DNA of 64,000 nucleotides, from the NCBI GenBank assembly GCA_011033025.1, contig WFMF01000145.1, forward strand, positions 186,001-250,000. The letters are read 5' to 3'. The notes below the pieces were generated by a model. It was given only the letters and a program-made list of their open reading frames with translations, made no database searches and had not been told where the DNA came from. The position numbers and the translations under genes are program-made. Shown piece after piece: positions 8,601-52,329 of this stretch (position 1 is its first letter; every line of letters starts with the position of its first letter). This DNA is from Beroe forskalii (lineage: Eukaryota > Ctenophora > Nuda > Beroida > Beroidae).

Positions 8601-11600
8601 TCATGGGGGCGGGATATAGAGTCAAGAGGGGTATGTAATGAGTTGAGAGGGGTATGCTATGAGTTGAGAGGCATTTGTTCATTGATGATCGTACAAAGGT
8701 TTTTCAGGAGTCTGAGAGGGTTCTTTAGGAGTGTTATAGGGTTACTCAGGAGCCCAGTGGAATAATTTTTAAAAGTGGCTGGGAATGAGGATTTAGCGGG
8801 AAAATGGCTTTTTCTGTCTAGTGGCGTCTCTAAAATCTAAGACTACTTCAATCATGATTTCATGTCTCAAAATCACGGAATTGTGGAGAAGGCTCGTCAA
8901 ATTTGACTATTCTTTGAGAAATGATGTAGGGAATTGAATCAATATCACAATAAAACGCTGAAAGCAATTATGAAGTAACGAATTTTACTCGTATAGTTAC
9001 ACATTATTTTCATTCTGTATCACGCCTATCTAGCTCAGTTGGCTAGACCGCGCGCTTAAATTAGCACCGATCTGTCGTACGCGAGGTCCGTGGTTCGAGC
9101 CCGACTATAGTCAAATTTAAAATTTTCATTTTCGTAGCTTATCTTCAGTTTTCTGATAGCAAATAATGATCCTACAGCCTAATCAGTTCATCAGAAAGAT
9201 ATTAAATTGATTCAAAAAGATTCTAAGATTGATTCAGCAGTTTGATTTCGAAATACAGTGGGATCTACTCAAATAAGCATGTTGCACTGGTGGTTTAAAC
9301 TAGAACTTCCAAAATGTTGAGTTCCACAACAAAAAGATGATATGGTGAGTTCCTGGCTGTATGGTGAGTTCCTGGCTGTATAAACAAACAATGGTAGCCC
9401 TGCAGCGGATTTCAGGATTCCTGGCTACTTTTGGAGTCTGGCAGCTAGTTTGGGAATATTTTGGCTAGTTTAGGATCCCCGTAGCTTTTTTAGGCATGAA
9501 TGACGCGCGTTTCGTGCGCGTTAATTGGATTCTGACGCAGTTTGGAAATTGCTCCTTTATCAAAACTAGCGAGTTGAGACGATTAGAATTATTACGCGGC
9601 GTAAAATAGCCAAATACTAGTATCTAATTTCTTTAATAACTGTCAACCTAAATGGGCTTTTTTTGCTTCGATTTGGGCAAATTTCGGCTGGGATTGCCGC
9701 TCCTACAATCCTCATATTATGCCACTGGGCTCAGGAGTGTGATAACTGATACGGTTACTCAGGAGTGTGAGAGGGTTGTTCAGGAGTGTGATAGGGTTAC
9801 TCAGGAGTGTGATACGGTTACTCAGGAGCGTGTTACGGCTACTCAGGAGTGTGAAACAGTTACTCAGGGGTGATAAGGTAACTTAGGAGTGTGATATGGT
9901 TACTCAGGAGTGTGATACGGTTACTCAGGAGTGTGATACGGTAACTCAGGAGTGTGATACGGTAACTTATGTGATACGGTAACTCAGGAGTGTTATACGG
10001 TTTCTCAGGAGTGTGATACGATTACTCAGGAACGTGTTACGGCAACTCAGGAGTGTGGAACAGTTACTCGGAGTGTGATACGGTTACTCAGGAATGTGAT
10101 ACGGTAACTCAGGAGTGTTATACGGTTACTCAGGAGTGTGATACGGTGACTTAAGAGTGTGATACGGTTATTTTGATACCCCACACGCTGCCCAAAGGAT
10201 GGAATCAACGTTTTAGGGTAAAACCAATGGTTGCATCGTTCTTCCCGTCCCAGAAAACCCCTATTTCGATACCCCACACACTACCAAAAGGATGGCATCA
10301 ATGTTTTCCCATTTTCAGCCATCGCCCAAGGCCAAAAATGGGCGTGGTCACCATAACTCCAGATATTAACGTTTAAGAGTAAAACCAATGGTCGCATCGT
10401 TCTTCTAGTCCCAGAAAACCCCTGTTTTGATACCCCACATGCCACCCAAAGGATGGTATCAATATTTTCAAAATTTCAGCCATCACGCTAGGCCAAAAAT
10501 TGGCGTGGTCACCATAACTCCACATATGAACGTTTTAGAGTAAAACCAATAATTGCATCGTTCTTCTCGTCTCAGAAAACCCCTATTTCGATACCCTACA
10601 TGCCATGTTATGGAAAAAATATTTTTTAAGTTGCCCCATTTCAGCTTCTGACAGGTCAAAAATGGGCGTGTCCAAAAATAGGTGTCGACATCGAAACAAA
10701 AATTGTCGACAAGTCTAGATCGATTCAGCATAGTCTTAAGTACCGGAAACCGATCCTAACTCCTTATTAACATTCCAAAAGCACGGGATTCCATTTCATC
10801 CCTGACTATAAAGTTATTTAAGAACTTTCAAAGTTTCTAACTTCAATTTATTTTAACGACCTCCCTTATTATTCTAATTTAAGCATGAATCTTAGATATA
10901 TTGGTTCCAAGATCATAGAAATACCATGGTTTATGGTTTAAAAAGATTTTTAGTTATTTTTCTCAGCTCAGCAAAATGGAACGTTACAATGGAACAGAAA
11001 TCAGGCTCAGGCGTGGGAACATTTTTCGGTTTATAAGATTGATGAAAATAAGATTTCACTGAAGTCTTATCATGGGAAGTTTCTATCAGCTCAGCCAAAT
11101 GGTGAAATGCAAGTAAACAGATCCAAGTGCTTGGGTTGGGAGCATTTTACTGTGCATCCTGCGTGTAGGGTACAAATCATCCAAGATGTGGAAGAAGGTT
11201 TGCATATACAGCATATTATTTTAAATTGCATTTGGAAACAAAATATGGCATTTCAAGACATTGGTAACAGATCCAACTTTTGGTTACCAAGATTGATCTT
11301 AAATCTCTGGTCAATAACCATTCATAATTTCATAACCTTGGGCACCCTTTAGAAACACCGATTCAGCTTAGGCATATGATTACTTTTCTTAATAATCAGC
11401 CCCTGACTGCCTGGTGCATTGATTGCTAGGCACTCCATAGCTTTGCCAAAGGTCCACCTTAGGTCTCGTCTTCTGTAGCTCACCTGATTAGGTCGACTCA
11501 TTAATAAGTCTGCCTAGACTGGTTTGGCATTTCTCCAGACTGCTTAGTTGGTAGAATTAACGAAAATACCAGTTTTTCAATCCACATTACCTTTTCAATG

Positions 11601-14982: not shown

Positions 14983-17900
14983 GGGGGGATTGTAGCCCAA
15001 AAAAAACAAAAAAAAACAAAAAAAAACCAAGCCCAAGATCGCAAATTTAGGGTAGGGCTTGGTTTTTTTTGGTTTCTTTTGGTTTTTTTCGGTTTTTTTT
15101 GGTTTTTTTTGGGTTGGATTTTTTGAACTTTTTGGACATATCACACCAATGTGTTATTTGTGTTATTTACATGTTCTTATTGATACTCAATGGTTTCCAA
15201 TCATTACAGATGGCTTAAATCACTATTTTAAAGACTTTATTAGCATTTGAGGAGCATTTTAAGAGCCCTCAGTGCTTTTTGATAAGGTACAACGGAAAAT
15301 CATGAGATAGCCCGGGACCTTGGTCAGCAGTGATAATAGAGAGGAACAGTAGAGGATCAATCGAATCAGGCCATACTGGTCTAAACAAGAGCGCTCTGAC
15401 CACTCATTATCACGTAGGGGTTAGTCAAGACCCGAGGGTCCTTCAAAAGGTCGTCCTTAGTTCACCAGAGGCCGGATGACGAAGGGCCAAGGATTCACCA
15501 AGCGTTACATCGCATCTCAGGGCGAGATAAGGCTTCATGAGGAGGTCAGGCTAGTGTCACCAGAGGGCTAGATAAGTGTTGCAGGGAGTCAGCTTGGAGT
15601 CACAAGGGGGCAAGAAAGGACCAACACGGCAACAGGTGAAGGTCGCCAGATGAAGGTCGGCCAGTTGAGAGCAATTTATCATTCTTGCTTCAATTATGAT
15701 TAACAAAGGTCAGCCACATTGATCGCCAGAAGACCAGTTTGTAAGCACTACAGGAACATGCCAAGTCAGCACTTCTGTCGTGGGAGCCACTGCGTCTGAA
15801 GGAACTCTTTGACAAAGACCTCATGGTGCCTTTCTCCCGATATGTGCATGGACTGATGAAGATCCGGTTTCCGGAAGATCCTCCTCAAATCAACATCCAT
15901 AAGTCAAAAACTAATACAACAGTTTATTAGCAAGTGAAATAACATTTTTGTGACAATCCTGTCTGTGACTTCTATACACTTTTCTTTATTGGATATGGCT
16001 CAGGAACTTAATTTCCACTTTTTAGTAGACACTTCAAGCATTTTAGTTCCTTGGCCTCATTTAAGTTGAGATTCCATCCTTTTCTACCTTTTTAACTTCA
16101 GTATTTCTTGGCTTTAGAATTTAGGACCTCTAGTTTTGCATACACTTCTTAATCATTCTTATCTTTTGAAACATTTCGGGGATTTTCCAGTAGAAGGTTT
16201 TCGGTCTGACATTACGTTATTTCTGTAATCTGACTGTAATGAACTATTTCTATTTCTATTTCTATTTCTAAGCACTTAGTCACCATTCACCAAGCAATGA
16301 TAAAGGCTTCATCAGTCAGCAAGGCTTGATTATTGATGCTCAGCATATCTTTCACGAGGTCGCAAGTTCATCTGTGTGGCTAAGGGACAGGCAAGTGCCA
16401 CCAGTTTCTTGCGAGAGTCGACTTGTTGATTAAACGTGTCCTGTGAAGTCATAATTGAGTAATTAACACTGGGAGAAGTGAGTCTGAAAAGGATGACGCC
16501 AAGGGTCTGTTCAGAATCTGGTTCATGAAGGTAACTAAGAGGGTATTCGGCCAGAAGATCACGTCAGAATCACCAGTGGGTTACTTGATCAGCTAAGAGA
16601 CAGCAGTGGGCCAAACAAGAAGTATCAGCTGGGTCATTAGAAAAGTTGTTGTCACCAGTGGTTTAAGCAAGATCAGGAGACGCCAGTAGGTCATGAAGGA
16701 TCAGGCAGGAGACACCAGTAGGTCAGGTAGGATCAGGAGACGCCAGTAGGTCAGGTAGGATCAGGAGACGCCAGTAGGTCATGTAGGATCAGGAGATGCC
16801 AGTAGGTCAGCTAAGATCAGGAGATGCCAGTAGGTTGGGTAGGATCAGGAAACACCAGCTATAGGTCAGGTAAGCAGGTAGGAACCGGAGACGCCAGTAG
16901 ATCAGGTAGGATAGCAGATACCACAAGGTAAGGTAGGATCAAAAGATGCCATTAGGTCAGGTAGGATCACGATGCTCAGGTAGGATCAGGAGACGCCAGC
17001 TGTAGGTCAGGTAGGATCAGGAGACGCAAATAGGTCAGGTAGGATCAGGAGATGCAAATAGGTCAGGTAGGATCAGGAGATGGCAGTAGGTCAGGTAGGA
17101 TCAGGAGAAGCTAGTAGGTCAGGTAGAATCAGAAGACGTTAGTAGGTCAGGTAGGATCAAGAGACACCAATGGCTAAAACAGTTACCTATTTGAGCCCTT
17201 TAATTTAAGGGTTTAGGCAAGATCAGGAGACGCCAGTAAGTCAGGTAGGATCAGGAGACGCCAGTAGGTCAGGTAGGATTAGGACTCCTAATCTTACCTG
17301 ACCTACTGGCGTCTCCTGATCCTACCTGACCTATAGCTGGTGTCTCCTGATCCTACCTGACCTACTGTGTACTGGCGTCTCCTGATCCTACCTGACTTAC
17401 TGTGTCCTGGTGTCTCCTGATCCTACCTGACCTATAATCGGCATCTGGACTGATCCTACCTGACCTACTGGCATCTGGACTGATCCTACCTGACTCATTG
17501 GCGTCTCCTGATCCTACCTGGGCCTCCTAAATCAGGAGGATCAGTCCAGATGCCAGTAGGTCAGGTAGGATCAGTCCAGATGCCGATTATAGGTCAGGTA
17601 GGATCAGGAGACACCAGGACACAGTAAGTCAGGTAGGATCAGGAGACGCCAGTACACAGCAGGTCAGGCAGGATCAGGAGACACCAGCTATAGGTCAGGT
17701 AGGATCAGGAGACGCCAGTTATAGGTCAGGTAGTAACCGGAGACGCCAGTAGATCAGGTAGGATAACAGACACCAGTAGGTAAGGTAGGATCAGAAGATG
17801 CCATTAGGTCAGGTAGGATCACGATACTCAGGTAGGATCAGGAGAAGCCAGCTGTAGGTCAGGTAGGATCAGTCCAGTTGCCGGTTGGTCAGGTAAGATT

Positions 17901-18628
17901 AGGAGACGCCAGTAGGTCAGGTAGGATCAGGAGTTGCCAGTAAGTCAGGTAGGATCAGGAGAAGCTAGTAAGTCAGGCAGGATCAGAAGACGTTAGTGGG
18001 TCAGGTAGGATCAAGAGACGCTAATGGCTGCAAATGCTTCCCAGTTACCTATTTGAGCTTCTAATTTATTAAGTGTCACTAGTGGGTCAGGCAAGAAGTA
18101 CCAGCTGGGTCAACAGTTAAATGTCTGCTGTCACCTTGACCTATGGTCAGGCAATGGTCGAAAGAAGGTCAGGTAAGATTCGCAAGTAGGTCAGAGAAGA
18201 TTCTTCAGTAGGTCATTATTCAGCCAAGCTAGAGAGAAAGAGGCTCTGTTGGTCAGGTCAGAGTCACCAGTGAATTGAGCAAGAGTTTCAAGCTGGGTCT
18301 GGCATGGGTCACCAGTCACTGAGGCAAGAGTCACCAGTAGTCACCAGTTAGTCAAGCAATATTGTGCATTTTACTGTAAGGTGATACCTAAGTCCTTCAA
18401 GCTCTGAAAGAGTGAAAATAACCGTTTCTATTCATCAAATAAACTTTAAGAGCCACTGACTGTGAAAATTATTTTCAAAAACAACAGATTTTAAGTTAAA
18501 ATTCATGGGAAAAAGCCCAGAAATTACCAAAATGTAACCCAAAAAAAACCTAAAAAAACCAAAAAAAACCTAGCCCAAGAATCGAAAAATGGGGTAGGGC
18601 TTGGTTTTTTTTGGGCTACAATCCCCCC
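14983..18628 (+). mobile_element. Complete GGGGGGATTGTAG-family TIR element with minisatellite, copy 1 (3646 bp)
   Basis: It starts GGGGGGATTGTAGCCC at 14983, ends with the complement at 18628, and is flanked by ATAAT (14978-14982 and 18629-18633). The subterminal ~100 bp at each end fold on themselves: AAAACCAAGCCC runs face GGGCTTGGTTTT runs. The interior has ~1 kb of unique sequence, a (TTTCTA)n run near 16245, and then a long array of GGTCAGGTAGGATCAGGAGA units. No transposase is visible. The second copy at 45048-49040, with a different 5-bp duplication, fixes the boundaries. Confidence 0.85.
16640..18330. repeat. Minisatellite GGTCAGGTAGGATCAGGAGA-type, with an inverted block
   Basis: Units of about 28 bp (GGTAGGATCAGGAGACGCC then AGTAGGTCA) run forward to 17280. 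They run in the opposite orientation from about 17283 to 17525, then forward again. The switch points are short palindromes (GATTAGGACTCCTAATC near 17277; CCTCCTAAATCAGGAGG near 17524). Confidence 0.9.
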
Positions 18629-32044: not shown

Positions 32045-33475
32045 TGAAAAAAAAAATGAGCTCGAGTCGGGGTGCCGAGCCGATTTTCGTCGGGGTCGGG
32101 GCGTCGAGCCGTGGAGTCCGAAGCCGGGCCGTCAGTCGGGGCCGTTCGGGGTCGTCAAATCGAGTCGTCGAGCCGAGTCGTCGGGGTCGAGTCGTCGAGT
32201 CGGGGGTCGTCGAGCCGAGCCGTCGGGTCGGGGTCGTCGGCCGGGGTGGGGCCGGGTCGAGTCGTCGGGGAGTCGTCGAGTCGAGTCGTGGTCGAGTCGT
32301 CGATTTGAGTCGTCGAGTCGAGTCGTCGGGTGAGTCGAGTCGAGTCGTCGAGTCGAGTCGTCGAGTCGAGTCGTCGAGTCAGCCGTCGAGTGGGAGCTCG
32401 TCGAGTCGAGTCGTCGAGTCGAGCTGTCGAGTCGAGTCGCCGAGTCGAGTCGTCGAGTCGAGTCGTCGAGTCGAGTCGTCGGAGTCGTCGAGTCGAGTCG
32501 TCGAGTCGAGTCGTCGAGTCGAGTTGCCGAGTCGAGTTGCCGAGCCGAGCCGAGTCGAGTTGCCGAGCTGAGTCGTCGAGCCGAGCCGTCGAGTCGAGCC
32601 GTCGAGTCGAGTCGTCGAGTCGAGCTGCCGAGCCGAGCCGCCGAGCCGAGCTGCCGCGAGCGAGCCGCCGAGCGGAGCTCGCCGAGTCGAGTCGCCGAGC
32701 CGGAGTCGCCGAGTCGAGCCGTCGAGCCGAGCTGCCGAGTCGAGCCGCCGTCGAGCGAGCTGCCGAGTCGAGTCGTCGAGTCGAGTCGTCGAGTCGAGTC
32801 GTCGAGTCGAGTCGTCGAGTCGAGTCGTCGAGTCGAGTCGTCGAGCCGAGTCGTCGAGTCGAGTCGTCGAGCGAGTCGTCGAGTCGAGTCGTCGAGTCGA
32901 GTCGTCGAGTCGAGTCGTCGGGAGTCGAGTCGTCGAGTCGAGTCGTCGAGTCGAGCCGTCGAGTCGAGTCGTCGTCGAGTCGTCGAGTCGTCGAGTCGAG
33001 TCGTCGAGTCGAGTCGTCGAGTCGAGTCGTCGAGTCGAGTCGTCGAGTCGAGTCGTCGAGTCGAGTCGTCGAGTCGAGTCGTCGACTCGACGACTCGACG
33101 ACTCGACTAGACGACTCGACTCGACGACTCGACTCGACGACTCGACTTGACGACTCGACTCGAATCGACGACTCGAGTCGAGTCGAGTCGTCGAGTCTTC
33201 GAGTCGTCGAGTCGAGTCGAGTCGAGTCGTCGAGTCGTCGAGTCGTCGAGTCCTCGAGTCGAGTCCTCGAGTCGAGTCCTCGAGTCGAGTCCTCGAGTCG
33301 AGTCCTCGAGTCGAGTCCTCGAGTCGAGTCGACTGGAGTCGTCGAGACGTCCGAGCCAAGTCATTAAGTCGAGTTGTTGAGTTGAGTCGTCGAGTCGAGT
33401 AGAGGGGAGTCGTCGAGTCGTCTTGTCTGACGTCGTCAGGGGGTCAGGCAACGCCTGACAAGAGTCGTCTAGTTG
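32045..33475. repeat. GTCGAGTCGAGTC (13-bp) array with an inverted block
   Basis: About 1.4 kb of TCGAGTCGAGTCG units, diverged (GCCGAGC) at the left edge and near-perfect between 32750 and 33080. From about 33083 to 33172 the units run inverted (CGACTCGACGACT), then they return. The unit has no stop codon in any frame on either strand, so long Ser/Arg/Val or Thr/Arg/Leu/Asp frames are automatic. Confidence 0.9.
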
Positions 33476-35073: not shown

Positions 35074-38000
35074 ATGTTCAAAAAGCTGACACAGAATATA
35101 ATTGAATGTCTTGGCCCAAAACAATTCTTGGAGAAAATCTTGCAGCTTGGTGGCCCAAGGTTGTATGTCATTTATGAAAGCACTAATTTCTTGTGTGCCC
35201 ACCAACAGAACATTGGTACAGTTTTGAAATGATGTAGCATCAAAAATTTTGTATTGGTGCCAACTTTATTTTGATACACATGCAACCTGATAGATTTGTT
35301 CTGTATTTTGTCTGAGTAATTTATCTGATTGAATGTGTTTTAAAACAACTATCAGTTATTATTACAGGTTATTAGTTGGTGACAGAGTGTTTAGCCTTGA
35401 GAAAGATGTTTGTGTGGTTGGTTTTGGTAAAGCAACCATGGAAATGTTCAAGCCATTGAAACAGTAAGTTTTATTCTTCAATTGATTATTATGACATCTA
35501 TTTTCAATCTATTTTCATACAACAATAATGGTTGATACACACTTCCACATTGAATTTGCATTACTTTCAAATACCTGCTTTATGAATTAGGTCTAAGTTG
35601 TACATAATACAGTAATTCAAAAGATGTCAGTAAATTCATTCAATAGATATTTTAAAAGTTAGCTAATATGTTTGAAGTGATTGATCATTTCAGTGAAACA
35701 CTAAAGTTAGCTGTGGATATAGTAAAATTTTCAAAGTCAAAAAGAATAGAACTTAAGGTCAAGCTAATTTCAAACAAATCTGAAGGACTTTATCTAATGA
35801 TATGGCCCCATGTGATGATTCACCTAGCTGAGAATTCACAAAATAAGGCTCATTAATCATCCTTTTGTGATGAAATAATTAATTCACGCAAGATTACTAA
35901 GGCTATTAGGTATATTTTCCAAAGGTTCAAAACTATTTGCACAAAATTGCATTTTCCCATAACAGCTCTGACTATTCAAACTAATGCTAATTAGAGCTTA
36001 AAGAACTATATGACTCCTCTTGGAAAACAATACTATGGTTAATTCTTTTGTCCTTGAAGCAAATGATTGGTATCAGTAGTGATAAGCTGCAGAGAAGTGC
36101 TAAAGTTCCCCAAAATATCCCTGCCCTTGAAAAATCCTCTTTAAACAGTTGGTCAATGAAACCTGCTAGATATGCACCAAGTGCATAAGCTAGACCATTG
36201 CCAGCTATCCAAAGAGATGACATAGTGTGCTTCTGGCTATCACTAGGCTCTTGGTTATGTGCTGTGGTAAATAAATGAATCATTGCTGGGGTAGTGTTTA
36301 TGGTACTATATGCATCTGACATTCCAATGATACATAGAAGTGGGTATATAATGTAGTGTATTGCAGATACCCATGATGTCGAAGCACTCTCTGGTGGGAA
36401 GATTGTGTATGCAGCCACAGCATCTAATGTGCAACACATGCATAAGAAATGCAATATTTTGTTACTGTTAGGTGTACTGAAGAATGTTATTATGACATTG
36501 ATTATTGCTATTGATATCATCATAATAAAAAGTGGCAAACTTGCCTCAATGACAGAAAATCCTAGACTAGCTACTGCAAAATGAGGTAGAGTAAGTTGAA
36601 GATAGCTTAGATATGCAGTAAGAACATATGACTGGCCTAGTGGAATATAGCATCTTAATGGCAATGAATTTGTAGAACCTTCATCATCATTATCAAACCT
36701 ATAGTCAAATTCCTTGATATTGAATATGGTGTGTGCAATGAAAGATAAGAAGAAAGCTATGGCCCCAAATATGTACAGTGGGGGAGCATAACCTCCTAGC
36801 GAATGGTAAATGATATTAGCTACTACAGGAACCACCCCATGAGGTATTACAGCTCCCAGATAGTAAGTTCCATTCACTTTACCCATATCATCTCTGTAGT
36901 AAGCAGATCCTAAGCAAATACTGCTCAATGTGACTGAGCTCATGAGACCACCCTGGATGGCTTGAAAGATGCAAGTCAAGGCTTGAAAACCTATTTTGTT
37001 GTTGTAGGACACCTTTTCATCAGTGGTATCCATAAGTAAGTTGTAGATTAATCCGGCAAGAAGTAAGCAACATCCATGTCCGTATAGTCCAATAAGTATG
37101 ACACATTTAGCAGAGAGATATTTCAGCACACATTTGTTGAAGAAGCCCATGAGGACATATCCAACTATGTAGTTGGCTTTGAACAGTCCGTACACAAATC
37201 CTGGTGGAAAGTTTCTGTGATATAAGTAGTGAAAACAATAATTTTGGAAAACATATCAGTTAATCATAACTGATATGTGTGCTCATCAGTCAAAAGCAGC
37301 TCGTCATAAGAGAAGTGAAAAGGGGCAGTAGAAAGAACCAAACAACGAGATATGCCGCTATTTTATTGTATACTTGTATGATTTTCTCCCCACTACTCGA
37401 ACTGTTTGGTCTATACCCAGGTCTTGAAACCACTCTTTGCTTTTTCTACTGGACCTTTCACTGCTCTTTTAGAAAGGTGCTTTTTGCCGATGAGTGATAA
37501 GCACGTCATGCACACATGAAATTATATTATATTCCAGGAATGATAAGAGTTCTGAAATTCTGTGTGTAAATCATTGTCAAGTACCACAAATCGACTGATA
37601 AGCGAATAAGATGTAATATGTTTATTTCTTGATTATTTTTACCAACCTGAAATTTGGTTGTCTGCTGCAAATATAGCCAAGTAGCCATCTCTTGCACTGA
37701 AACATGTGTTGGTGATGAAACAACACAGTGCGATCAGAAACAAGGCCCACTTCTTTTTAGAATCTTCTATTTTCGGGAATAAAGTGACTTTTTCGTGTGA
37801 ACGAGTTGCCATTTTTTGGTCCTTTGAGCTCAAATTGAAGTAGGTGTTAAATGAGAAAATTTTGGGAGCTCGAACTAATAATGTCGACATACAAATTAAT
37901 CATTTTAATAAACTATTGTTTCTCAATTAATACTACTGTCAATAAATTAACAAAAGTGCTGACACTTATATACAGGGTGCGCCAAAAGTCTTGTCCCCTT

Positions 38001-41000
38001 TTACTTTTTTGATTATTTGAAAAGTACAGCAGATATTTCGATTTTGTAAAAAGTTTCTTTAAATATAACTAAAGAATGGCGGATTCTGAGATTTTCGGGT
38101 TGCTGTGACGTCCATAGCGGCGGCACGGGTTCCCATAGCAACCGACCTAAAAATTAAAGATTTTTGACATTTTTGACATATAGATCAGGACCACATTTTA
38201 TCTTTTGATTGGTCATCTTACAGGATAGATATTTCGATTCTGTGAAAAGTTTCAGTGATCATAACCAGTCTGCAACGCTAAATTCAGAGATTTTCAGGTT
38301 GCTATGACTTTCACAGCAACCACACGAGTTTCCATAGCAACCAGACTCAAAATGGAAGAATCTGGGCTTCTTTAAAAAAATGAAACTCGCTAATTGCCAT
38401 TTATTTCAATTTTATTGCTGGTAGAAAGGGTAGTAAACACTACAAAATGTTAAATTACAGTGAATCTAGCTCAATAGGGGTTCAATGCATGTTCAAAGTA
38501 GTCTCCTTGGGTGGAATTTTGGGCTAATTTCAGTGAAAATCCTTGAATTTTAAACCCGGTTGCTATGGAAACTCGTGTGGTTGCTATGAAAGTCATAGCA
38601 ACCTGAAAATCTCTGAATTCAGCGTTGACTGGTTATGATCACTGGAACTTTTCACAGGATCGAAATATCTATTTTTATGATTAGCAATCAAAACAGTATA
38701 TTTGGTCTTGATTTATATGTCAAAAATGCCAAAAATCTTCGATCTTTAGGTCGGTTGCTATGGGAACTCGTGTCGTTGCTATGGACGTCGGAGCAACCTA
38801 AAAATCTCAGAATCCGCCATTCTTTGGTTATATTTAAAGAAACTTTTTACAGAATCGAAATATCTGCTGTATTTTTCAAATAATCAAAAAAATAAAAGGG
38901 GACAAGACTTTTGGCGCACCCTGTAAAAATAACATTCCAGAATTTGGTATAGATTTTTTTCCTCAAGAACATGTAACTACTTTACTGCCATGAAACTTAA
39001 ACAACTCTGAGCATTGCCCATATCAGTGGTGGCTTAAAAGGTGGAATGATTCTTTCAATTATTTCCTCAATTAAGTGAGATTAGCTACACCTCAACACCG
39101 GTCCTCTCCTCCCAACACTCGGTTATTGGTTACTGGGCGGTTTCCAAAACCCCCCTGACATGGACTGTAGGTATATATGCCAGAACTACGTCACTAACGG
39201 TCCACACTAAACTATGATAATGACGTCACTCAGAACAGCCTTGAGATTATACGAGCATCTTTGATCCTGGCTTTGATTAAGGAAATCTGGATCATGTGGG
39301 AGTTATTACTTCGCCCCCACCTGCCCTAAATCAGGATTTTCACCTACAATTATCATTAATTCACCTCTGTATTATTACCTCTATCACTACGTTACAGCAC
39401 GTGCATTGCGCAGCGGTGTGATTAGGAAAAACACATGTTTATAACCGTGATTATTTTCACGGTCAGAATGAATTACTTTGACTGGTGGAGATGATTTACT
39501 GATTTATTCCATAGCCTCGTGTCTCACATTTGAAGACTAATTAGTGTGAGGTGGATAAATCAATGGTAATAGGAGGATATACTGTGGTTAAAACACCTGC
39601 TTGTTATTTAGCACGCGGTTTGGTGAGAAGACGACCGCTTTATCGCAATCATATTCTTTTTCAGAAGGTCATGATAATAATAAGAAAAAGAAAGTTTCGG
39701 AGGTTTGTTAAATTCTATACTGGCCAGATCAAGCTGTTTGGTAGGTTAATATTATTATGTATATATAAGTATAAATAACCTGTTTGAATCAGTAGCGTAA
39801 ATTAGAAAAGTTTATAGTTTGTTTAATTGTAAGTTATCGAGTAATCAATTGCAACTGTTGACTGGCAGATTTTAAATCCATAATATGTAATATTTAAAAA
39901 TAAAGTTTCCTACACCTGAGGCCTGAGTGGAATTGTATTTTTGGCTTCAAGTTCTAAAATCATAGATAAATATAGGTACTTAGGTAAATGAATGTAGCGA
40001 TATACTACTGCGAAACGAAACTTGAAGAACAAGTCGAATTACCCATTGGCTCTACGCTGACGAGTTACGAATTACATCCTGATATTATGATAACTGGTGC
40101 GAATAATGACAAAGCCATAATATGATGAAGGCGAGAATTAGAAATCTAAATTATCGTATTGCTCGATCGTATATTTCCCGCCCTGGCCGGGGCGGTAACC
40201 CCCTGCATATCAGAAAAAGAAAAAGAAATAGAGAGTCGGGACCTATCAAAAACGATTCGTCATAACGTTTTAGAATTTTATCTTCTCCTATCTTCCTGTT
40301 TCACAGTTCAGGCGATGATTGCTTGCCCTGAGCTATGCTATTGCTCACTGTAGCTTAAATGAGGGCAACGTAAGTTCATATCGGATCGGACGAAAATTGT
40401 TGCCGTGGGAAGCCCCTGAATAATGTCTATGGACCTGCAAAATGGTTAAAATTACGGTCATGGCGAAAATTTGTTACTGTTACAGTGTTACCCTATTTTG
40501 TGATACAATGGTGACCTAATAACTTAATAGTTAATTATAGTAATCATGTCTCGCAGTTAATAGGTATAGGGAAATACGATGAAACAGTGAAGCACGTGAG
40601 TTCACGTGGACGTTTAGTAGAAATGCGGGAATTTGACGAAATTGCTATTTTCACGTGATTTGCATTTGAATTGAAATGCATTGAAACAAGTTCAAATACG
40701 ATAAATGTGAAATTGAAGCCAACTGCTGTATTTCAGCACGTGAGTTCACGTCGATGAGTTGTAGAAATAAAGAAAAACGTCACTTTCGTCGATTCCAAGA
40801 ATAACGTTGTTTCCAACTGCGTGGGGTTTAGTTACATTGGTTACAATTGACAAATGAACTGACCACTCCATATCAGCGGGGGTTACTACGACGACCGTCC
40901 AATGGCTTTGGAGATAATATAGATTAGATAACATATTTATGACTAAAAGGGGTATATAAAATTCTTTCTTATTTATACTCTGAAAGACAAGAGATTATGA

Positions 41001-44000
41001 GAAACACCTGATGGGGTCCAGGGTGCCTGAAATCTGTTTCTTCAGGGCAACAGACTTCAGAGTGCTTTATATCATGGTATCACGTGACATTCACAACTTA
41101 AACAACACAGTCAGGTGACTGAGGTGCTGTATATCATGTGACGCATCACATGATATAGGTTTATAATGTAACGTATCATATATAGCGCTCGTTATGCGAA
41201 AAAACAAAGGTTCTACCGTGGACATAAAGCAAGAAAAACATGTAAACATGTCATAATATATGTGTTTGTAAAAAAAACAAAGGTCATGACAAAAGCAATA
41301 TTAGTAAATTGGTTAACATATAATATTGGAACGCTAATTAACATCGCCCCTGACTACACGGGAGTTGTTCCGTGAGAAAACAATTAATAAGCTCACTGAG
41401 CTGTGGAATTACCGACCTTCCAAGACAGGTGTTCTGGTGTTTGGTAAGGCATTGTCCCGTCTCAAGGCGTCAAAAACTTAGGAGCGAAAGTTTTATATAT
41501 TGAATATTATTACTAAGTCAAAACCTGGGTCCCCTACTATACCAACTACGAGCTGGCAATCCACAACGCTGTTGCTGATTTGTAATGTAATGGGATTTTC
41601 GGACAAATGTCCGTGTTGGACAAATGTCCGCAAAATTTCGTACTGGGTTTCGGACAACTGTCCGTGTCGGACAAATGTCCGTGTCGGACAAATGTCCGTG
41701 TCGGACAAATGTCCGTGTCGGACAATTTCATGTGATGCGCCCTAAAGTTCTTCGTACTTGACATTCACCGTCCATCACTGATAATGGATGATGGGATCAG
41801 TGTCCCCTGACGAGTTGCTCATGTATTTAAGTAATGTGATGCGAGACAGGCTCTTCTAGGAACACCATTTATCTCCCTTCTACGGACTTCTTCCTGGAAA
41901 GACCACCACCCTTCAGGTTGCGAAGAAGTCAAGATGGTTTCCCCTCAGGTTGGCAATCCACAACGCTGTTGCTGATTTGTAATGTAATGGGATTTTCAGT
42001 TTCCCCTCAGGTTACTTAGAGATAAGATCAGTTTCCCTCAAGTTGCTGGGTGATAAGATCAGTTTCCCTTCAGGCCCTTCAGGTGGCTTGCAGATAAGAT
42101 CAGTGTCCACTCAGGTTTCTAGTAGATAAGATCAGTTTCCCTTCAGGTTGCTTGGAGATAAGATCAGTGTCCACTCAGATTGCTTAGAGATAAGATCAGT
42201 TCCCTTCAGGTTGCTAGGAGATAAGATAAGTTTCCCCTCAGGTTGCTGGGAGATACGATCAGTTTTCCCTCAGGTTGCAAGAAGATAAGATCAGTTTCTC
42301 CTCAGGTTGCTAGTAGATAAGATCAGTTTCCCTTCAGGTGGCTTAGAGATAAGATCAGTGTCCACTCAGGTTGCTAGGAGATAAGATCAGTTTCCCTTCA
42401 GGTTGCTTGGAGATAAGATCAGTGTCCACTCAGGTTGCTTAAGATAAGATCAGTTTCCCGTCAGGTTGCTAGGAGATAAGATCAGTTTTCCTTCAGGTTG
42501 CTTGAGATAAGATCAGTTTCCCCTCAGGTTGCTTAGAGATAAGATCAGTTTCCCCTCAGGTTGCTAGGAGATAAGATCAGTTTCCTCACAGGTTGCTAGG
42601 GGATAAGATCAGTTTCCCTTCAGGTTGCTAGAAGATAAGATCATTTTCCCCTCAGGTTGCTAAGAGATAAGAACAATTTCCCTTCAGGTTGCTAGGAGAT
42701 AAGATCAGTTTCCCCTCAGGTTGCTAGAAGATTAGATCATTTTCCCCACAGGTTGTTAGGAGATAAGATCAGTTTCCCCTCAGGTTGCTTGGAGATAATC
42801 CAATGTCTTATCTATAGAGGTGTATGGGTATACTATAAACATAACAAAATACTGCATATCGATTTTCCAATTCAAGGATCATTTTTCCCTCAGGTTGCTT
42901 AGAGATAAGATCAATTTCCCCTCAGGTTGCTTAGAGATAAGATCAATTTCCCCTCAGTTTGCTTAGAGATAAGATCAGTTTCCCCCAGGTTGCTAGGAGA
43001 TAAGATCAGCAAGAGCTTTCTATCAGTGCCGCACTCAGGTGCCGTTGATCCACTTGTGGGCCACGATGCTTCTTGTAAGGTGAATTATGTTCAGGAAACT
43101 GTTTTCGTTCGTTCAATAGTGAATATAAAGTAAAACCCAGGATAGTTTTTCTTCTTACATCTTACAGCTTTTTCAAGACCCCTACAATCATATCAATCCA
43201 CGTGTGGTAATCGATTCCTCAGCGTAATCTGGCTTCAGATGTTTGAGTAAATTTGGGCTCCTTTATTATCAAAAAGTGAAGGCAAACGTCCCAATTCACA
43301 GGTGGTACGAGCAGCGAAAAACAACCTTCCTGACGATAATACTCTGGATATAACGGGACAGATAGTTGATCACGTGACCACTCTGAAAGAGGGTGATCTC
43401 TGCATCTGCCTCATATCAGGTACTCTGAATAGGAATTCAAGGAAATCAACTGGAATGGAATATATCACCGAATTAAATGTCAAATCTAGGGACCTGCTGG
43501 AAAACAGTCATATATATGTATGAACGGAGGGTATATCAAAGGTGGATAAAACAAGCATGCTTTTCTGTATGAATTGTTCATTTCACATCAAGGCATCCTA
43601 AATTTCAAAGTACGGCATCAATTGGCTAAGAAATGTGTAAGAAAAAGTGTATTGAAAGTTTTGAAAATAATCTGCAATTGTATTGCATATTTTCACTGTT
43701 CATACTGATAAGCATGGAAGTTATCAATGTGCCCAGTACTGAAATACACTAGTTTTGAAAACAATAAGCTATCCAAAACTTGACCGACGATTTAGGGCAC
43801 AGAAGGTAAACCAAACTGTGAAATGAAAGTGCGTAAAATGCGAGAATAGTGTATTTGGAAGGCAATTCCTGACATTCGAAGCAGCCAAATTCATGGTCAC
43901 TTTTACTAGGTACATTAAGAGTCCATTTGCTTATTTAGTTGTGTACCCCTAGCTCACAACAAAACCAACTTTCTAATGATAAAAGCTACAGTAATGATAA

Positions 44001-47000
44001 AATTATACTGTTAACATAGATCGCTATATCCGGAATTCTTGCTAATTTCCTCATACTTTTGCTAGTTTAATCATGATAAATGATAATAATCATCATATTA
44101 TCAGTTTACGCTGATACAGATGCCACCACAAGTTATACGAATGACACCGTAACTCTTCATATCCAGGTGTTATTATTCAGGTGGTGGCTCTGCGTTGCTT
44201 TGCGACCCTATCGTACCCCTTCCCGACCTCCTTGACACCATTCGGATCCTGGTGTCAAAATCAGCTACAATACAACAGGTAGAGCAGAATGAAACACAAT
44301 TAAACCTAGCTTATGTCATAGTTTTTAATGGTTTCATCACACTATCTCAGTCATTTCACCACATTAAACTTGATACACGTAATCGTTATGCTACGACGAG
44401 TGGATGATAAATTAAGGTTGTTGGCCTGTTTTTGGCAAAAGGCCAAAAGTGATCCTATTTGATATTCTTTTGATGGTTCAGAGCGCGTTAAGGACGCATC
44501 AATCGACTTGATACTGACCGTTTTCACACTTATGTCGTAGTACTTGGTCCATGCGTAGCCCAATGAATGTCCTCCTGTACGGTATGTTGAACAAGGAATT
44601 GAAACTGACTCTGAGGGGTCCCGTACAGACCGAACTTTGGCAAAATATGTGGAAATAGCCCTTATTAGTGTAGTAATACATTTACACTGAGTAATAATGC
44701 TTAGCCACGAATACTGCAACAACTTTAAGGGACGATCATATTTTAATGTTATCTGTGTTTAAAACGACTCGTTATTAGCAGTTTTGCAACAAAACTTTTA
44801 CAAATATATGCGTTCTTGCAGTATTACGATTCTAATCTTGCAGAATTAAGACTCTAATCCCCCGCAGTTGAACACAGTCAGGACCTTCCTCTGCTCACTA
44901 AAAGGCGGTGGATTGGCTGCCCACATAGCCCCAGCTACCGTAGTATCGCTCATTATCTCTGATGTCATCGGGGACCCGCTACACAGCATAGCTAGTGGAC
45001 CCACCGTGCCGCACAAGGTTAGTACTTTGAGAGTGGAAGGGAACCAAGGGGGGATTGTAGCCCAAAAAAAACCAAGCCCTACCCCATTTTTCGATTCTTG
45101 GGCTAGGTTTTTTTTGGTTTTTTTTGGTTTTTTTAGGTTTTTTTTGGGTTACATTTTGGTAATTTCTGGGGCTTTTTCCAATGAATTTTAACTTAAAAAT
45201 CTGTTGTTTTTGAAAATAATTTTCACAGTCAGTGGCTCTTAAAGTTTATTTGATGAATAGAAACGGTTATTTTCACTCTTTCGGAGCTTGAAGGGCTTAG
45301 GTATCACCTAACAGTAAAATGCACAATATTGCCTGACTAACTGGTGACTACTGGTGACTCTTGCCTCAGTGACTGGTGACCCATGCCAGACCCAGCTTGA
45401 AACTCTTGCTTAATTCACTGGTGACTCTCACCTGACCAACAGAGCCTCTTTCTCTCTAGCTTGGCTGAATAATGACTTTTGCCTGACCTATTGCGGCTTA
45501 CTGGTGAGTGGTGACTACGCGTTCCAGGTGCAGGCGATTCTTGCCTGACCAAATTGTGACCCAAATTGTGACCAAGTTAACAAGTTAGGCCTTTTTCCTG
45601 AATGCCTCACTGACTGGTGACACCCCATGACCCAGCTGCCCATCGGACCACAGGTAACTCTTACCTGATCTCCTGGCGCCTCCTACTTGACCTACTAGCG
45701 TCTCTCACCTGGCCTACTGACAACCTTACCTGACCTACTAAGGAATCTAATCTGACCTACTGCCGACTCTTACCTGGCCTAGTGACGATTCTTATCTGAC
45801 CTACTGACGAATCTTCTCTGAACTTCTTGCGAATCTTACCTGACCTTCTTTCGACCATTGCCTGACCATAGGTCAAGGTGACAGCAGACATTTAACTGTT
45901 GACCCAGCTGGTACTTCTTGCCTGACCCACTAGTGACACTTAATAAATTAAAAGCTCAAATAGGTAACTGTTTTACTTTTAGCCATTAGCGTCTCTTGAT
46001 CCTACCTGACCCACTAACGTCTTCTGATCCTGCCTGACTTACTAGCTTCTCCTGATCCTACCTGACTTACTGGCAACTCCTGATCCTACCTGACCTACTG
46101 GCGTCTCCTAATCATACCTGACCAACCGGCAACTGGACTGATCCTACCTGACCTACAGCTGGCTTCTCCTGATCCTACCTGAGTATCGTGATCCTACCTG
46201 ACCTAATGGCATCTTCTGATCCTACCTTACCTACTGGTGTCTGTTATCCTACCTGATCTACTGGCGTCTCCGGTTACTACCTGACCTATAACTGGCGTCT
46301 CCTGATCCTACCTGACCTATAGCTGGTGTCTCCTGATCCTACCTGACCTACTGTGTACTGGCGTCTCCTGATCCTATCTGACGTACAGCTGGTGTCTCCT
46401 GATCCTACCTGACTTACTGTGTCCTGGTGTCTCCTGATCCTACCTGACCTACAATCGGCATCCGGACTGATCCTACCTGACTCATTGGCGTCTCCTGATC
46501 CTACCTTGGCCTCCTAAATTAGGAGGCCCAGGTAGGATCAGGAGACGCCAATCAGTCAGGTAGGATCAGTCCAGATGCCGATAGGTCAGGTAGGATCAGT
46601 CCAGATGCCGATTACAGGTCAGGTAGGATCAGGAGACACAAGGACACAGTAAGTCAGGTAGGATCAGGAGACGCCAGTAGGTCAGGTAGGATTAGGAGTC
46701 CTAATCCTACCTGACCTACTGGCGTCTCCTGATCCTACCTGACTTACTGGCGTCTCCTGATCTTGCCTAAACCACTGTTGACCCAGCTGGTACTTCTCGC
46801 CTGACCCACTAGTGACACTTAAATTAAAAGCTCAAATAGGTAACTGTTTTAGCCATTGGTGTCTCTTGATCCTACCTCACCTACTAACGTCTTCTGATTC
46901 TACCTGACCTACTAGCTTCTCCTGATCCTACCTGACCTACTGCCATCTCCTGATCCTACCTGACCTATTTGCATCTCCTGATCCTACCTGACCTATTTGC

Positions 47001-50000
47001 GTCTCCTGATCCTACCTGACCTACAGCTGGCGTCTCCTGATCCTACCTGAGCATCGTGATCCTACCTGACCTAATGGCATCTTTTGATCCTACCTTACCT
47101 TGTGGTATCTGCTATCCTACCTGATCTACTGGCGTCTCCGGTTCCTACCTGACCTATAGCTGGTGTTTCCTGATCCTACCCGACCTACTGGCATCTCCCG
47201 ATCTTACCTGACCTACTGGCATCTCCTGATCCTACATGACCTACTGGCGTCTCCTGATCCTACCTGACCTACTGGCGTCTCCTGATCCTACCTGACCTAC
47301 TGGTGTCTCCTGCCTGATCCTTCATGACCTACTGGCGTCTCCTGATCTTGCTTAAACCACTGGTGACAACAACTTTTCTAATGACCCAGCTGATACTTCT
47401 TGTTTGGCCCACTGCTGTCTCTTAGCTGATCAAGTAACCCACTGGTGATTCTGACGTGATCTTCTGGCCAAATACCCTCTTAGTTACATGAACCAGATTC
47501 TGAACAGACCCTTGGCGTCATCCTTTTCAGACTCACTTCTCCCAGTGTTAATTACTCAATTATGACTTCACAGGACACGTTTAATCAACAAGTCGACTCT
47601 CGCAAGAAACTGGTGGCACTTGCCTGTCCCTTAGCCACACAGATGACCTTGCGACCTCGTGAAAGATATGCTGAGCATCAATAATCAAGCCTTGCTGACT
47701 GATGAAGCCTTTATCATTGCTTGGTGAATGGTGACTAAGTGCTTAGAAATAGAAATAGAAATAGAAATAGTTCATTACATTCAGATTACAGAAATAACGT
47801 AATGTCAGACCGAAAACCTTCTACTGGAAAATCTCCGAAATGTTTCAAAAGATAAGAATGATTCAGAAGTGTATGCAAAACTAGAGGTCCTAAATTCTAA
47901 AGCCAAGAAATACTGAAGTTAAAAAGGTAGAAAAGGATGGAATCTCAACTTAAATGAGGCCAAGGAAATAAATGCTTGAAGTGTCTACTAAAAAGTGGAA
48001 ATAAAGTTCCTGAGCCATATCCAATAAAGAAAAGTGTATAGAAGTCACAGACAGGATTGTCACAAAAATGTTTTCACTTGCTAATAAACTGTTGTATTAG
48101 TTTTTGACTTATGGATGTTGATTTGAGGAGGATCTTCCGGAAACCGGATCTTCATCAGTCCATGCACATATCGGGAGAAAGGCACCATGAGGTCTTTGTC
48201 AAAGAGTTCCTTCAGACGCAGTGGCTCCCACGACAGAAGTGCTGACTTGGCATGTTCCTGTAGTGCTTACAAACTGGTCTTCTGGCGATCAATGTGGCTG
48301 ACCTTTGTTAATCATAATTGAAGCAAAAGAATGATAAATTGCTCTCAACTGGCCGACCTTCATCTGGCGACCTTCACCTGGTGCCGTGTTGGTCCTTTCT
48401 TGCCCCCTTGTGACTCCCAGCTGACTCCCTGCAACACTTATCTGGCCCTCTGGTGACACTAGCCTGACCTCCTCATGAAGCCTTATCTCGCCCTGAGATG
48501 CGATGTAACGCTTGGTGAATCCTTGGCCCTTCGTCATCCGGCCTCTGGTGAACCAAGGACGACCTTTTGAAGGACCCTCGGGTCTTGACTAACCCCTACG
48601 TGATAATGAGTGGTCAGAGCGCTCTTGTTTAGACCAGTATGGCCTGATTCGATTGATCCTCTACTGTTCCTCTCTATTATCACTGCTGACCAAGGTCCCG
48701 GGCTATCTCATGATTTTCCGTTGTACCTTATCAAAAAGCACTGAGGGCTCTTAAAATGCTCCTCAAATGCTAATAAAGTCCTTAAAATAGTGATTTAAGC
48801 CATCTGTAATGATTAGAAACCATTGAGTATCAATGAGAACATGTAAATAAGACAAATAACACATTGGTGTGATATGTCCAAAAAGTTCAAAAAACCCAAC
48901 CCAGAAAAAACCAAAAAAAACCGAAAAAAACCAAAAAAAACCAAAAAAAACCAAAAAAAACCAAGCCCTACCCTAAATTTGCGATCTTGGGCTTGGTTTT
49001 TTTTGGTTTTTTTTGGTTTTTTTTGGGCTACAATCCCCCCACCAAGACAAAGTTAATGGGATTTCTAAAATTTAGAATATGATGAAAGTGAGAAATGAGA
49101 ATCTCAAATAAAATTTGAAGGTTTTCTTTGGCGATTTAACCGATTCTAAGTTCTAATGTGACTCTTCGGCAGGTAACCTCAGAAGACGTCCTGAGTACCC
49201 TGACCAGTATCGATGTCTCACTCCATGCCCTACCTACCTCAGTACAACACCTCATAGAAACGCAACACGAAAGCAATGTTACGTTGCCAGCAGAGCAACC
49301 TTTCAACCTGATTGTGGCATCCAACACGGTGAGAAAATATGGTTTATTCGCTGTTCCTAACACCGTAGTAATAAGGAAATGGTAATTGGCAATTGAATTT
49401 TTGAATTAGCGTTATCCTGCTATAATTTTATCTAGAATAATTTTGTTATTCGTCATTTTATTCCTACTGTAAGTAGCAGCAATGGTAATTATTTACTGGT
49501 TATGTTAAATTTCCTCAGTCCCTCACATTGTATTTCATTGAATATTATTTGAATGTTTAAAAGGATGAATTTTCATGAACAGAAAGGCCTTATAATTAAT
49601 GATTTGCCCACTTTTAATGCGATTTAGAATTCCTTTTCTTTTCATTTTCAATCCCTAAGCAGGTATAGTAATAATACAATACCAACTGAGCTTCCATTTT
49701 CATGCGGCCTGTAAATTGTAAACTTAACTTTGTAAATTGTAATTTTATTTAAAAATTATATCATACGATGGAGAGGTGACAAAATTGTATGTGCGAGTAA
49801 TAAAAATAAAATGTAGATTACACCTTGAATAGTGAATATATTATAATATTGCATTACATAAACTGTTAGGTTATTACTAATAGTGTTTTAATATTATATA
49901 AGAGCAAACCGACTGGTTTGCTCTTGAATGTTTAATTTTATCCTTCTTTTTGGAATGAATTTGGTAAATGCTTATATCTGTCTACATGGAGATCCAGAAG

Positions 50001-52329
50001 GCTTCAAAAGTTTGATCCATTTTTCATTCGCCCTGTATGTAGTAGTTGTGTCTTATTTGGTACCATTTAAAGCTATCAGATAGTTATAGTCAGAATCAGT
50101 ACAATGAAATCACCGTGTGAACCTATTATCAGATACTTTAAGTCTGTCAGAACCACGGAACATTGAATTAGTGGACAAATCCAAGCGCTCATGCCCAACG
50201 TAAAATGAACTTACAATGAAGCTCTGAGAGCTATATCTGTCTCCTGGCCGAAATGTGCTGAACCAAATAGAAAAGTTCGGAATAAGTAGTCTTGAAATCC
50301 TTTTTGTTACGAGAATAATTACATTGAAATGATATGACATTGCTTAACGATATATCAAATCTTCAGATTGCTATGGAAGTGGCTGGGAAGCAGGTTGAAG
50401 CTCTTGGTTTTACGCCCTACCTCATGTCAAACTCTCTATCCGGTGAAGCTAGGTACGTTTTAAAACATCCTTATACCTACTTTAGTGTACCTACTTTAGT
50501 ATACCTACTTTAGAATGTACAATATACTTATAAATCATGAAATTCGTTCGGATTTCCCTCATACGCATATTAATTATGTGACGTTTAAAATTCAAGTCTA
50601 CCTTATAGGTAGTGTGAGTTTCATGATTAATTCAGTCATTTAACATTCATTCCGAATATAAATGATTGTATCCGCCTAATAAACTGGTGGAGTATAAACA
50701 TTTTGTATTATCAGATACAGTATTCACGACATTCTAAAGTAATACTTGTAAGTGAGTGAACAGACTTTATAAGATGGTAGACGTTATATACAACAGCTAA
50801 CTGTTAATTCATAGCACTCCCGTAGTAGCTTAAAATCTAAAATGTCAAACCTGCAAATGTCCATTGTCTCCCAGAGAAGTTGCTACTGAACTGGCAGAGT
50901 CAGTGGTGCTCTCGACACATGATAGGACCTTCTCGCACATAGGAAATGATATGGTTCACAAAATACAGCATGCTATGACATCAGGTTTATGTTTGATTTG
51001 ATAATATACAGGCACATCTCAGAAATCAAGTAAGAAGAGTTCCGTTTGGTTTTGAAGGTCAATGTTTTTCAAGTTATTAAGACATCAAGATCAAGTTTTT
51101 AAGACAGTAATTGAAAAGATTTTAAAAATCAAGCGTTCTTGACCTTTTAATTTCAAGTTCTTTCAAAATTCGGGTACTGAGATTTGAAACCTCACGGACA
51201 CCTCATATATATATAAATATTGTTAGAACAAGCGAAACAACATAACTGAAATTGTTATAATATGTTATATTAAATTAGTCACATATTATTATTATGATGT
51301 TGCCCTACCGTTTCAATGGGAGTCTACGGGTGTTGTACTGGGCACGGCGTCTATCGTCTAGCGCCTCTCAATTGTAGAGTTTCAGGTCCATCATGGAATT
51401 ACGATTTTCATTGTGCGGACATCGCTCTTTTTGCCACTTTGGCTTGCCGCTGCCGGCTTGTTTCAAGTCCAACGCACCATGACCGTAACATTCAACCTAA
51501 CGGAGATGTCATGAGTACTGAGAACGCCCATTGACATCTCCAAACGACCGCCATTTGTACGCGCGTGATACTGATTTAAACCATGTGTATTTATGGTCCC
51601 ACACGGCTCAGAAATTTCAGTATGATTCTCATTCCTCGAACTCGCAACACCTTTTTTGTGACACCCGCCCCCATATCCATTGCTTGTCCAGGATATGAAA
51701 AGGTGTGTTTCATTTGGGGCGGGGAAACTACGGTAACTATCGTGGGTGACGGGGTCGGAGGCAGGTGTCAGGAAATGGGATTAGCAGCTCTAATAGCACT
51801 CGGTGAGTTAGCAAGGATGGTGTGATTTTCAGATAACTTCATGATTATTAGAAATAAGCTATATTCACATACCAAGTAATATATTTGATCTAGTTATATC
51901 TGGGGAATCAAAAACTTTGAAGTTCTGGTTTTGAATGCTGATAGATTCAGCTCAGCACTAGGTAGAGTTTGAAAGTTTGCTTCATAGTAGTGCTTTTGTA
52001 ATCGCAATATTCATCAATTCCACCTCAACTAAAACTAACTTATCTCAGGACGCCACCCAGTTCCCACCTCCTCCCTCCACCCTATGATTACAGTCGTTAT
52101 CACCAGTACGGATGGTCAGGACGGTCCTACGGACGCTAGTGGGGTCATTGTGTCCTGTAGCACTGCTCCGGAAGCAGAGAACCAAGGGCTGTCTCCCCTC
52201 TCGTATCTAGATCGGAATGATTCGTACACTTTCTTCAGTCAGCTTAATGGAGGAGATAACTTACTGAAGAGTGGTCTGACGGGTACTAATCTCATGGATA
52301 TTGTCATGGTGTTTGTCGAGTTCACCTAA
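35074..52329 (+). CDS. GLYCTK: D-glycerate 2-kinase (class II, MOFRL family), 11 exons
   Basis: It phosphorylates D-glycerate with ATP to 2-phosphoglycerate in serine and fructose catabolism. Exons: 35074-35162, 35368-35463, 42989-43079, 43302-43419, 44181-44278, 44868-45017, 49173-49328, 50367-50452, 50875-50984, 51692-51802 and 52049-52329. All phases agree and the total is 1386 nt (461 aa; the human protein is 523). Family motifs in order: GDRVFSLEKDVCVVGFGKA, LISGGGSALL, SLKGGGLA, SDVIGDP, ASGPTVP, VASNTIAMEVA, FIWGGETTV, STDGQDGPTDASG and LTGTNLMD. The start ATG gives MFKKLTQNIIECL, which aligns with the family N-terminus; an upstream exon is possible because CTATAG precedes it. Intron 2 (7.5 kb) holds an antisense transporter gene and ends in an amplified splice-acceptor array. 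Intron 6 holds a 4.0-kb transposon. The region after SVPHSG is about 15 residues shorter than in human. Confidence 0.9.
35987..37890 (-). CDS. SLC18B1-like major facilitator transporter, nested in GLYCTK intron 2
   Basis: Two exons on the minus strand, 37890-37647 and 37200-35987, phase 1 junction, 485 aa. The junction reads AADNQISGFVYGLFKANYIVG, matching the TM1-TM2 turn of SLC18B1-type carriers (IIGMIFGCFALFE in human). About 12 hydrophobic segments are visible: one in exon 1 (WALFLIALCCFITNTCF) and the rest in exon 2. They include GTYYLGAVIPHGVVPVVANI and SSLWIAGNGLAYALGAYLAG, the equivalents of the GPxxGG and MWSIGA regions of the family. The tail ends in SYSSLSSN. SLC18B1 is a vesicular polyamine carrier in mammals; the substrate here is inferred only. 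The first ATG (37890) gives a ~30-residue N-tail; a second in-frame Met (MATRSHEK) is an alternative. Being wholly inside an intron of GLYCTK on the opposite strand, it must have its own promoter. Confidence 0.82.
37973..38923. mobile_element. 951-bp mariner-type fold-back element
   Basis: CAGGGTGCGCCAAAAGTCTT at 37973 and its complement ending at 38923 are flanked by TA on both sides, the Tc1/mariner target. The inverted arms extend roughly 390 bp through TTGCTATGGAAACTCGTG-like repeats, leaving a short unique centre. There is no coding capacity. It lies just upstream of the nested SLC18B1-like gene. Confidence 0.85.
38926..41490. other. Rest of GLYCTK intron 2, scattered repeat fragments
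   Basis: Fragments related to elements elsewhere: a GC palindrome with GTAACCCCC near 40180, an E-box-type repeat at 40590-40755 related to 5680-5995, and a GGGGGTTACTACGACGACC fragment at 40877. No exon seen. Confidence 0.45.
41552..41998. repeat. 47-bp direct duplication flanking a palindromic 17-bp repeat
   Basis: TGGCAATCCACAACGCTGTT and the following 27 bases (to GGGATTTTC) occur at 41552 and again at 41952. After the first copy come about five units of GTCGGACAAATGTCCGT (41600-41725), each containing the palindrome CGGACAAATGTCCG. After the second copy the splice-acceptor array begins. Confidence 0.8.
41995..43009 (+). repeat. ~32-bp minisatellite built from the GLYCTK exon 3 splice acceptor
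   Basis: Roughly 29 units, each made of TTTCCCCTCAG followed by GTTGCTAGGAGATAAGATC and AG. The array is broken once (42800-42885) by unrelated sequence. The last unit is the genuine 3' splice site and first 20 nt of GLYCTK exon 3 (acceptor AG at 42987-42988). Many upstream units encode the same LLGDKI as the exon, with synonymous changes such as CTT for CTA. Confidence 0.88.
43420..44180. other. GLYCTK intron 4
   Basis: 761 bp, AT-rich, no further feature seen. Confidence 0.6.
45048..49040 (-). mobile_element. Complete GGGGGGATTGTAG-family TIR element, copy 2 (3993 bp), in GLYCTK intron 6
   Basis: Six G at 45048 and six C ending at 49040, flanked by ACCAA (45043-45047 and 49041-49045). It is the reverse complement of 14983-18628 with a longer minisatellite, and it shares the same unique segment (AAGATCCGGTTTCCGGAAGA type), (TAGAAA)n run and subterminal CCAAAAAAAACC hairpins. 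The donor of exon 6 lies 30 bp upstream and the acceptor of exon 7 about 130 bp downstream, so splicing signals are untouched. Confidence 0.88.
45650..47400. repeat. Minisatellite of the second GGGGGGATTGTAG element
   Basis: Mostly TCTCCTGATCCTACCTGACC orientation, with an inverted block from about 46520 to 46697. It is bounded by the same palindromic switch points (CCTCCTAAATTAGGAGG, GATTAGGAGTCCTAATC) seen in copy 1. Confidence 0.9.
49329..50366. other. GLYCTK intron 7
   Basis: About 1.0 kb, AT-rich. Nothing recognised. Confidence 0.6.

Follow-up and report, generated by a model that had tools for sequence, protein, structure and literature searches.

Intron 2 of the glycerate kinase gene (GLYCTK) in this stretch of DNA ends in a long row of near-identical splice acceptors. 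Which of them is the real boundary of exon 3, how did the others arise, and do they change the message that the gene produces? The analysis covered the whole 64-kb stretch, called the window below. Our best explanation is a neutral minisatellite that grew out of the intron/exon boundary itself, of the kind called a mirage, with splicing predicted at its last unit; we give this reading a probability of roughly 0.75.

The GLYCTK model was built from homology and splice signals, with the first ATG taken as the start. It has 12 exons on the + strand, from the ATG at 35074 to the stop at 52329, and encodes an uninterrupted protein of 473 residues; every intron is GT-AG, and the phases are consistent throughout. 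This one open protein carries both glycerate 2-kinase domains, DUF4147 (191.7 bits) and MOFRL (104.4 bits), which bears out the gene identity proposed by an earlier, sequence-only reading. The exons and the intron that holds the array are as follows.

35074-35159, + strand: GLYCTK exon 1 (coding), open, GT-AG, phase fits; the Pfam DUF4147 alignment begins at profile position 3
35368-35463, + strand: exon 2, encoding the GFGKA motif; ends AAACA/GTAAGT (the slash marks the junction), phase 2
35464-42988, + strand: intron 2 (7.5 kb), whose 3' end carries the array
42989-43079, + strand: exon 3, 91 nt, starting G/TTG CTA GGA GAT AAG ATC; its first 21 nt lie in the repeat
43168-43206, + strand: exon 4 of the gene model
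43302-43419, + strand: exon 5 of the gene model
44181-44278, + strand: exon 6 of the gene model
44868-45017, + strand: exon 7 of the gene model
49173-49328, + strand: exon 8 of the gene model
50367-50452, + strand: exon 9 of the gene model
50875-50984, + strand: exon 10 of the gene model
51692-51802, + strand: exon 11 of the gene model
52049-52329, + strand: exon 12 of the gene model

A domain search of the genome placed DUF4147 and MOFRL at this locus only, with two exon matches per domain. A pseudogene or a duplicate copy of GLYCTK is unsupported, since both domains lie at a single locus and the model is open. Among the matches listed, three Branchiostoma GLYCTK entries were 37-38% identical to the query and other animals 35-40%, so that Branchiostoma stood no nearer to the query than did sea urchin, coral or lizard and other reptiles. 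An identity far above 37-38% would be expected if the gene came from a lancelet, so the host of the array is probably not one.

Intron 2 also contains a nested gene on the opposite strand.

35990-37255, - strand: MFS-transporter-like ORF of 422 aa within GLYCTK intron 2, with nine homologues at 54-77% identity
37639-37899, - strand: likely further exon of the nested MFS-like gene

Three of the nine homologues carry Pfam PF07690 and eight are without a name; the one labelled eukprot:sb/3467174/ is 59% identical. The style of this label may point to the ctenophore Pleurobrachia bachei, no more than a hint towards ctenophores. The 422-aa ORF itself had no Pfam match.

Wrap-around alignment located the minisatellite at 41909-43009, as 34 tiles of a 32-bp unit: 28 clean units, the decayed tiles 1-3 and 6, and the interruption tiles 29-30. 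TRF reported the same array with period 32, 24.9 copies and a score of 981, plus an end piece of 4.2 copies (score 215). The unit consensus is TTTCCCCTCAG/GTTGCTAGGAGATAAGATCAG, a pyrimidine tract followed by CAG and by 21 nt from the start of exon 3. The array's 3' end lies 21 bp into exon 3, and the repeat unit thus spans the intron/exon boundary. The sequence-only reading had described a minisatellite at this acceptor; the array is real, but its start moves from 41995 to about 41909. Its parts are the following.

41909-41999, + strand: tiles 1-3, the decayed beginning of the array, 91 bp, holding a 47-bp copy of 41554-41600
42000-42798, + strand: main block of 32-bp units, from tiling and TRF
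42799-42882, + strand: interruption unrelated to the unit (tiles 29-30), about 80 bp, of which the last 6 bp are possibly unit
42883-43009, + strand: last four units; the final one, 42979-43009, holds the real intron/exon boundary

The copied 47-bp stretch lies upstream of the array and reappears at 41951-41997, within the decayed first units. Unit statistics were computed on 28 of the 34 tiles (tiles 1-3, 6, 29 and 30 dropped), with unit 28 gap-filled and two surplus letters trimmed off the end of unit 5; unit 10 was placed at 42210 in the acceptor counts. Beyond the 28 clean units, the array has three pyrimidine-CAG sites, at 41917, 41949 and 42083. The branch-point consensus YTNAY does not occur in the unit consensus; it matches three times in 41881-42988, at 41972, 42585 and 42807, the last within the interruption.

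The real boundary can be recognised by reading frame and by homology. Exon 2 ends TTG AAA CA/GTAAGT, in phase 2, so exon 3 must open with one codon-completing base. The acceptor AG at 42987-42988, with exon 3 starting at 42989, completes CA+G as Q and reads PLKQ/LLGDKISKSFLSVP in frame. For comparison, two sets of 120 homologues were used, one from the first protein search and one from a full-length search, each the best 120 of several thousand, with no sequence shared between them. In all 240 of these best matches, the spacing from GxGKA to LLG is 15 residues, as in the join to 42989. LLGDKI agrees with the family consensus [IL]LGD[RH][IL]; in the second set (best 120 of several thousand), L stands at position 2 in 98 sequences, G at position 3 in 113 and D at position 4 in 105, with mostly I at position 1 and mostly H at position 5. 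On the downstream side, the spacing from LLG to FLSVP is nine residues here, in 103 of the 120 sequences of the first set (17 differ) and in 120 of 120 of the second, again among the best of several thousand. Weighing on the other side, leaving out the LLGDKI encoded by the repeat lowers the domain profile score only from 187.1 to 184.1 bits, and the two PDB relatives align well only from query residue 73 or 77, beyond the junction.

Spacing and motif together indicate that the exonic part of the repeat is old GLYCTK coding sequence; the array therefore derives from the boundary. The agreement of LLGDKI with the family pattern puts the boundary first in time, with the array made up of copies of it. 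By these sequence criteria, the last unit is the true intron 2/exon 3 boundary. Two proposals of the sequence-only reading stood up here: that the unit was made of the acceptor plus the start of exon 3, and that the final unit, entered at 42989 in phase 2, was the genuine one.

The upstream copies keep much of the form of an acceptor. AG is retained in 26 of the 27 upstream clean units, or 27 of 28 with the last unit counted, in line with the many intact copies noted before. When each decoy was joined to exon 2, 17 of 27 joins were out of phase, which agrees with the earlier expectation that most alternatives would shift the frame, and nine of the ten in-phase joins met stops. Overall, 26 of the 27 joins, and 25 of the 26 with AG, reach a stop before the end of exon 3. 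The sole productive decoy, both in phase and open, would start the exon at 42926, as the sequence-only reading had also found.

42926-42988, + strand: candidate exon 3 extension of 63 nt (21 codons), if the acceptor at 42924-42925 is used

This decoy gives an intact longer protein and to that extent counts against a neutral reading. It would allow an alternative GLYCTK isoform, in which some transcripts use 42924-42925 and insert 21 residues (LLRDKINFPSVCLEIRSVSPR) between GFGKA...PLKQ and LLGDKI. The site scores 7.7 as an acceptor, within the range of the other units, and its join is open and in phase with exon 2. However, none of the 240 aligned homologues (the two best-120 sets) has an insert at this place, the extended protein fits the domain worse (179.8 vs 187.1 bits), and a single open frame among 27 decoys is unremarkable. 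We therefore consider such an isoform unlikely.

Acceptor strength was scored with a matrix made from the gene's 10 other acceptors, a small sample from one gene, whose leave-one-out scores ranged from -5.7 to 5.6. On this scale, the decoys averaged 6.2 and the real site scored 9.2, so that the decoys lie level with or above the gene's other acceptors. Two decoys outscored the real site, the clean one at 42894 (10.9) and the decayed one at 41917 (11.2), and so did four intron 2 sites outside the array. In sequence, the units thus resemble acceptors, and the choice among them must fall to position or context. With two decoys above the real site, site sequence does not explain why the last acceptor should win, which also weighs against the neutral reading.

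The same observations, acceptor-like scores together with AG in 26 of 27 decoys and stops in 25 of those 26, are what one would cite for a tuning of gene output. Here the decoys would send splicing into stop-containing frames (NMD), and productive mRNA would drop as the copy number rises. In its full form, this would be a copy-number-dependent splicing rheostat: 27 near-equal decoys would stand against the last acceptor, nearly all of them giving stops and one a 21-residue-longer enzyme, and the length of the array would set GLYCTK output and vary between individuals. Against this, lancelet mirages reportedly leave regular splicing undisturbed (PMC3087553, PMC3902484), and the copies carry no clear sign of selection on their AG or codons in either codon-position counts or three-column windows. 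Changes in the upstream copies fall at codon positions 1, 2 and 3 in 13, 11 and 21 cases, with most of the position-3 changes coming from one column (14). The CAG shows no clear excess of constraint, since three of the 32 three-column windows, its own included, are as invariable. No coding constraint is apparent in the upstream copies. We regard output tuning as quite improbable, and expect just as little of the rheostat built on it.

Could the array instead have come from elsewhere? An unrelated minisatellite or transposon array might have inserted at the boundary and brought a new acceptor with it, and the region is indeed rich in minisatellites and other repeats. In the genome, however, 32 matches to the unit with at most two mismatches were counted, of which 26 lie in the array; the other six all have two mismatches, and five of these are near-identical to one another. 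A backwards control pattern gave one match, with about 2.5 expected by chance under equal base frequencies. Within these genome counts, which are lower bounds, the unit is confined to the one locus, and its sequence stems from the gene there. An origin from a dispersed satellite or a transposon is rejected on this confinement, again with counts that are lower bounds; the dispersed satellite that would have refuted the sequence-only reading did not turn up in them. As the repeated exonic part also carries the family motif where the homologues have it, the arrival of a foreign array is very improbable.

Recursive (ratchet) splicing, in which a mistaken join might restore a donor that is then spliced again further down the ladder, finds AG/GT in 25 of 28 units. 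Yet the re-formed donor ACA/GTTGCT scores 1.1, under 10 of the 11 gene donors (0.2 to 8.5 when left out), and as exon 3 also begins GTTGCT, the same logic would skip exon 3; this is the least probable of the readings.

The neutral boundary minisatellite accounts for the array as follows. A short stretch running from the pyrimidine tract through the AG to nucleotide 21 of exon 3 would have been tandemly duplicated, and unequal exchange or slippage would then have enlarged and shuffled the array to about 30 intronic copies. The TGTCCACTCAG variant is common to the distant units 7, 9, 15 and 17, and variants common to distant or alternating units point to turnover within the array. The spliceosome most likely keeps to the last copy, which adjoins exon 3 and its donor; all the earlier copies would then be intron, and their occasional use would mostly yield truncated, probably degraded messages. 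Going by the lancelet cases, no effect of the array on splicing would be expected by default.

The position of the array at a boundary was compared with the general density of tandem arrays. The scan covered the window and three 10-kb stretches, and the comparison with exon edges was made within GLYCTK. Tandem arrays fill 11.2 of the 64 kb of the window, and 17 of the 49 merged arrays have a period of at least 15 and at least three copies. With 15 arrays in the gene span, three array ends were seen within 32 bp of an exon edge, against 2.6 expected under random placement; the coincidence of the array with the boundary thus needs no special cause.

Several other repeats were recorded in the window. 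A 28-bp family (GATCAGGAGACGCCAGTAGGTCAGGTAG) forms large arrays at 16671-18021 and 45987-47347, in both orientations, the second within GLYCTK intron 7. A 22-bp tandem duplication of 2.1 copies at 44814-44867, each copy containing TCTTGCAG, stops 8 bp short of GLYCTK exon 7 and is possibly a small second case of acceptor duplication. An array of GTCGA-type short repeats, 1.25 kb long, lies at 32151-33400. The ORFs at 10954-12277 have weak fascin/FRG1-like domain matches, under the curated cut-offs, with several 21-22-bp arrays nearby.

If this locus is a guide, boundary minisatellites are no peculiarity of lancelets and may arise as a by-product in any region dense in minisatellites. The 28 very similar acceptors in a row offer a natural test of how the spliceosome chooses the exon-proximal AG where the sites differ so little in sequence, and also of models that treat such arrays as seeds of new introns.

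The closest known systems are the mirages of lancelets, a name that follows earlier work on Adh (PMC3087553). In the passages that describe them, an intron/exon boundary is tandemly amplified in Adh, the globins and PGBD5, acceptor side included, and the arrays are proposed as seeds of new introns (PMC3087553, PMC3902484); the second source added the PGBD5 case and cited troponin C (PMC3902484). A full-text search of the open-licence literature, in the text it returned, recognised no mirages in animal groups other than lancelets, which is weak evidence of absence. A different kind of case is known from human segmental duplications, where internal tandem repeats, with units of 30 bp on average and four copies, are described as altering gene structure and in some cases activating cryptic splice sites (PMC2812944). 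Those repeats, as described there, concern recent primate paralogues with changed structure, whereas GLYCTK, found once in the genome, keeps a gene structure that yields a full-length protein.

Like the GLYCTK array, the lancelet mirages are described with units that combine the intron end and the splice signal with one edge of the exon, either its start or its end, and many, not all, of their units keep AG or GT (PMC3087553, PMC3902484). The acceptor-side mirage of BflGb6 has six and three units in two haplotypes, each unit of 150-160 bp, in contrast to the 32-bp unit and 28 clean copies seen here, whereas the Adh3 units of 10-72 bp overlap the GLYCTK unit in size (PMC3087553). The lancelet cases, in the same account, are backed by RT-PCR (PMC3087553); the GLYCTK array is described here from DNA sequence. 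On this comparison, the GLYCTK array is apparently a mirage-type boundary minisatellite with many short units, outside the lancelets.
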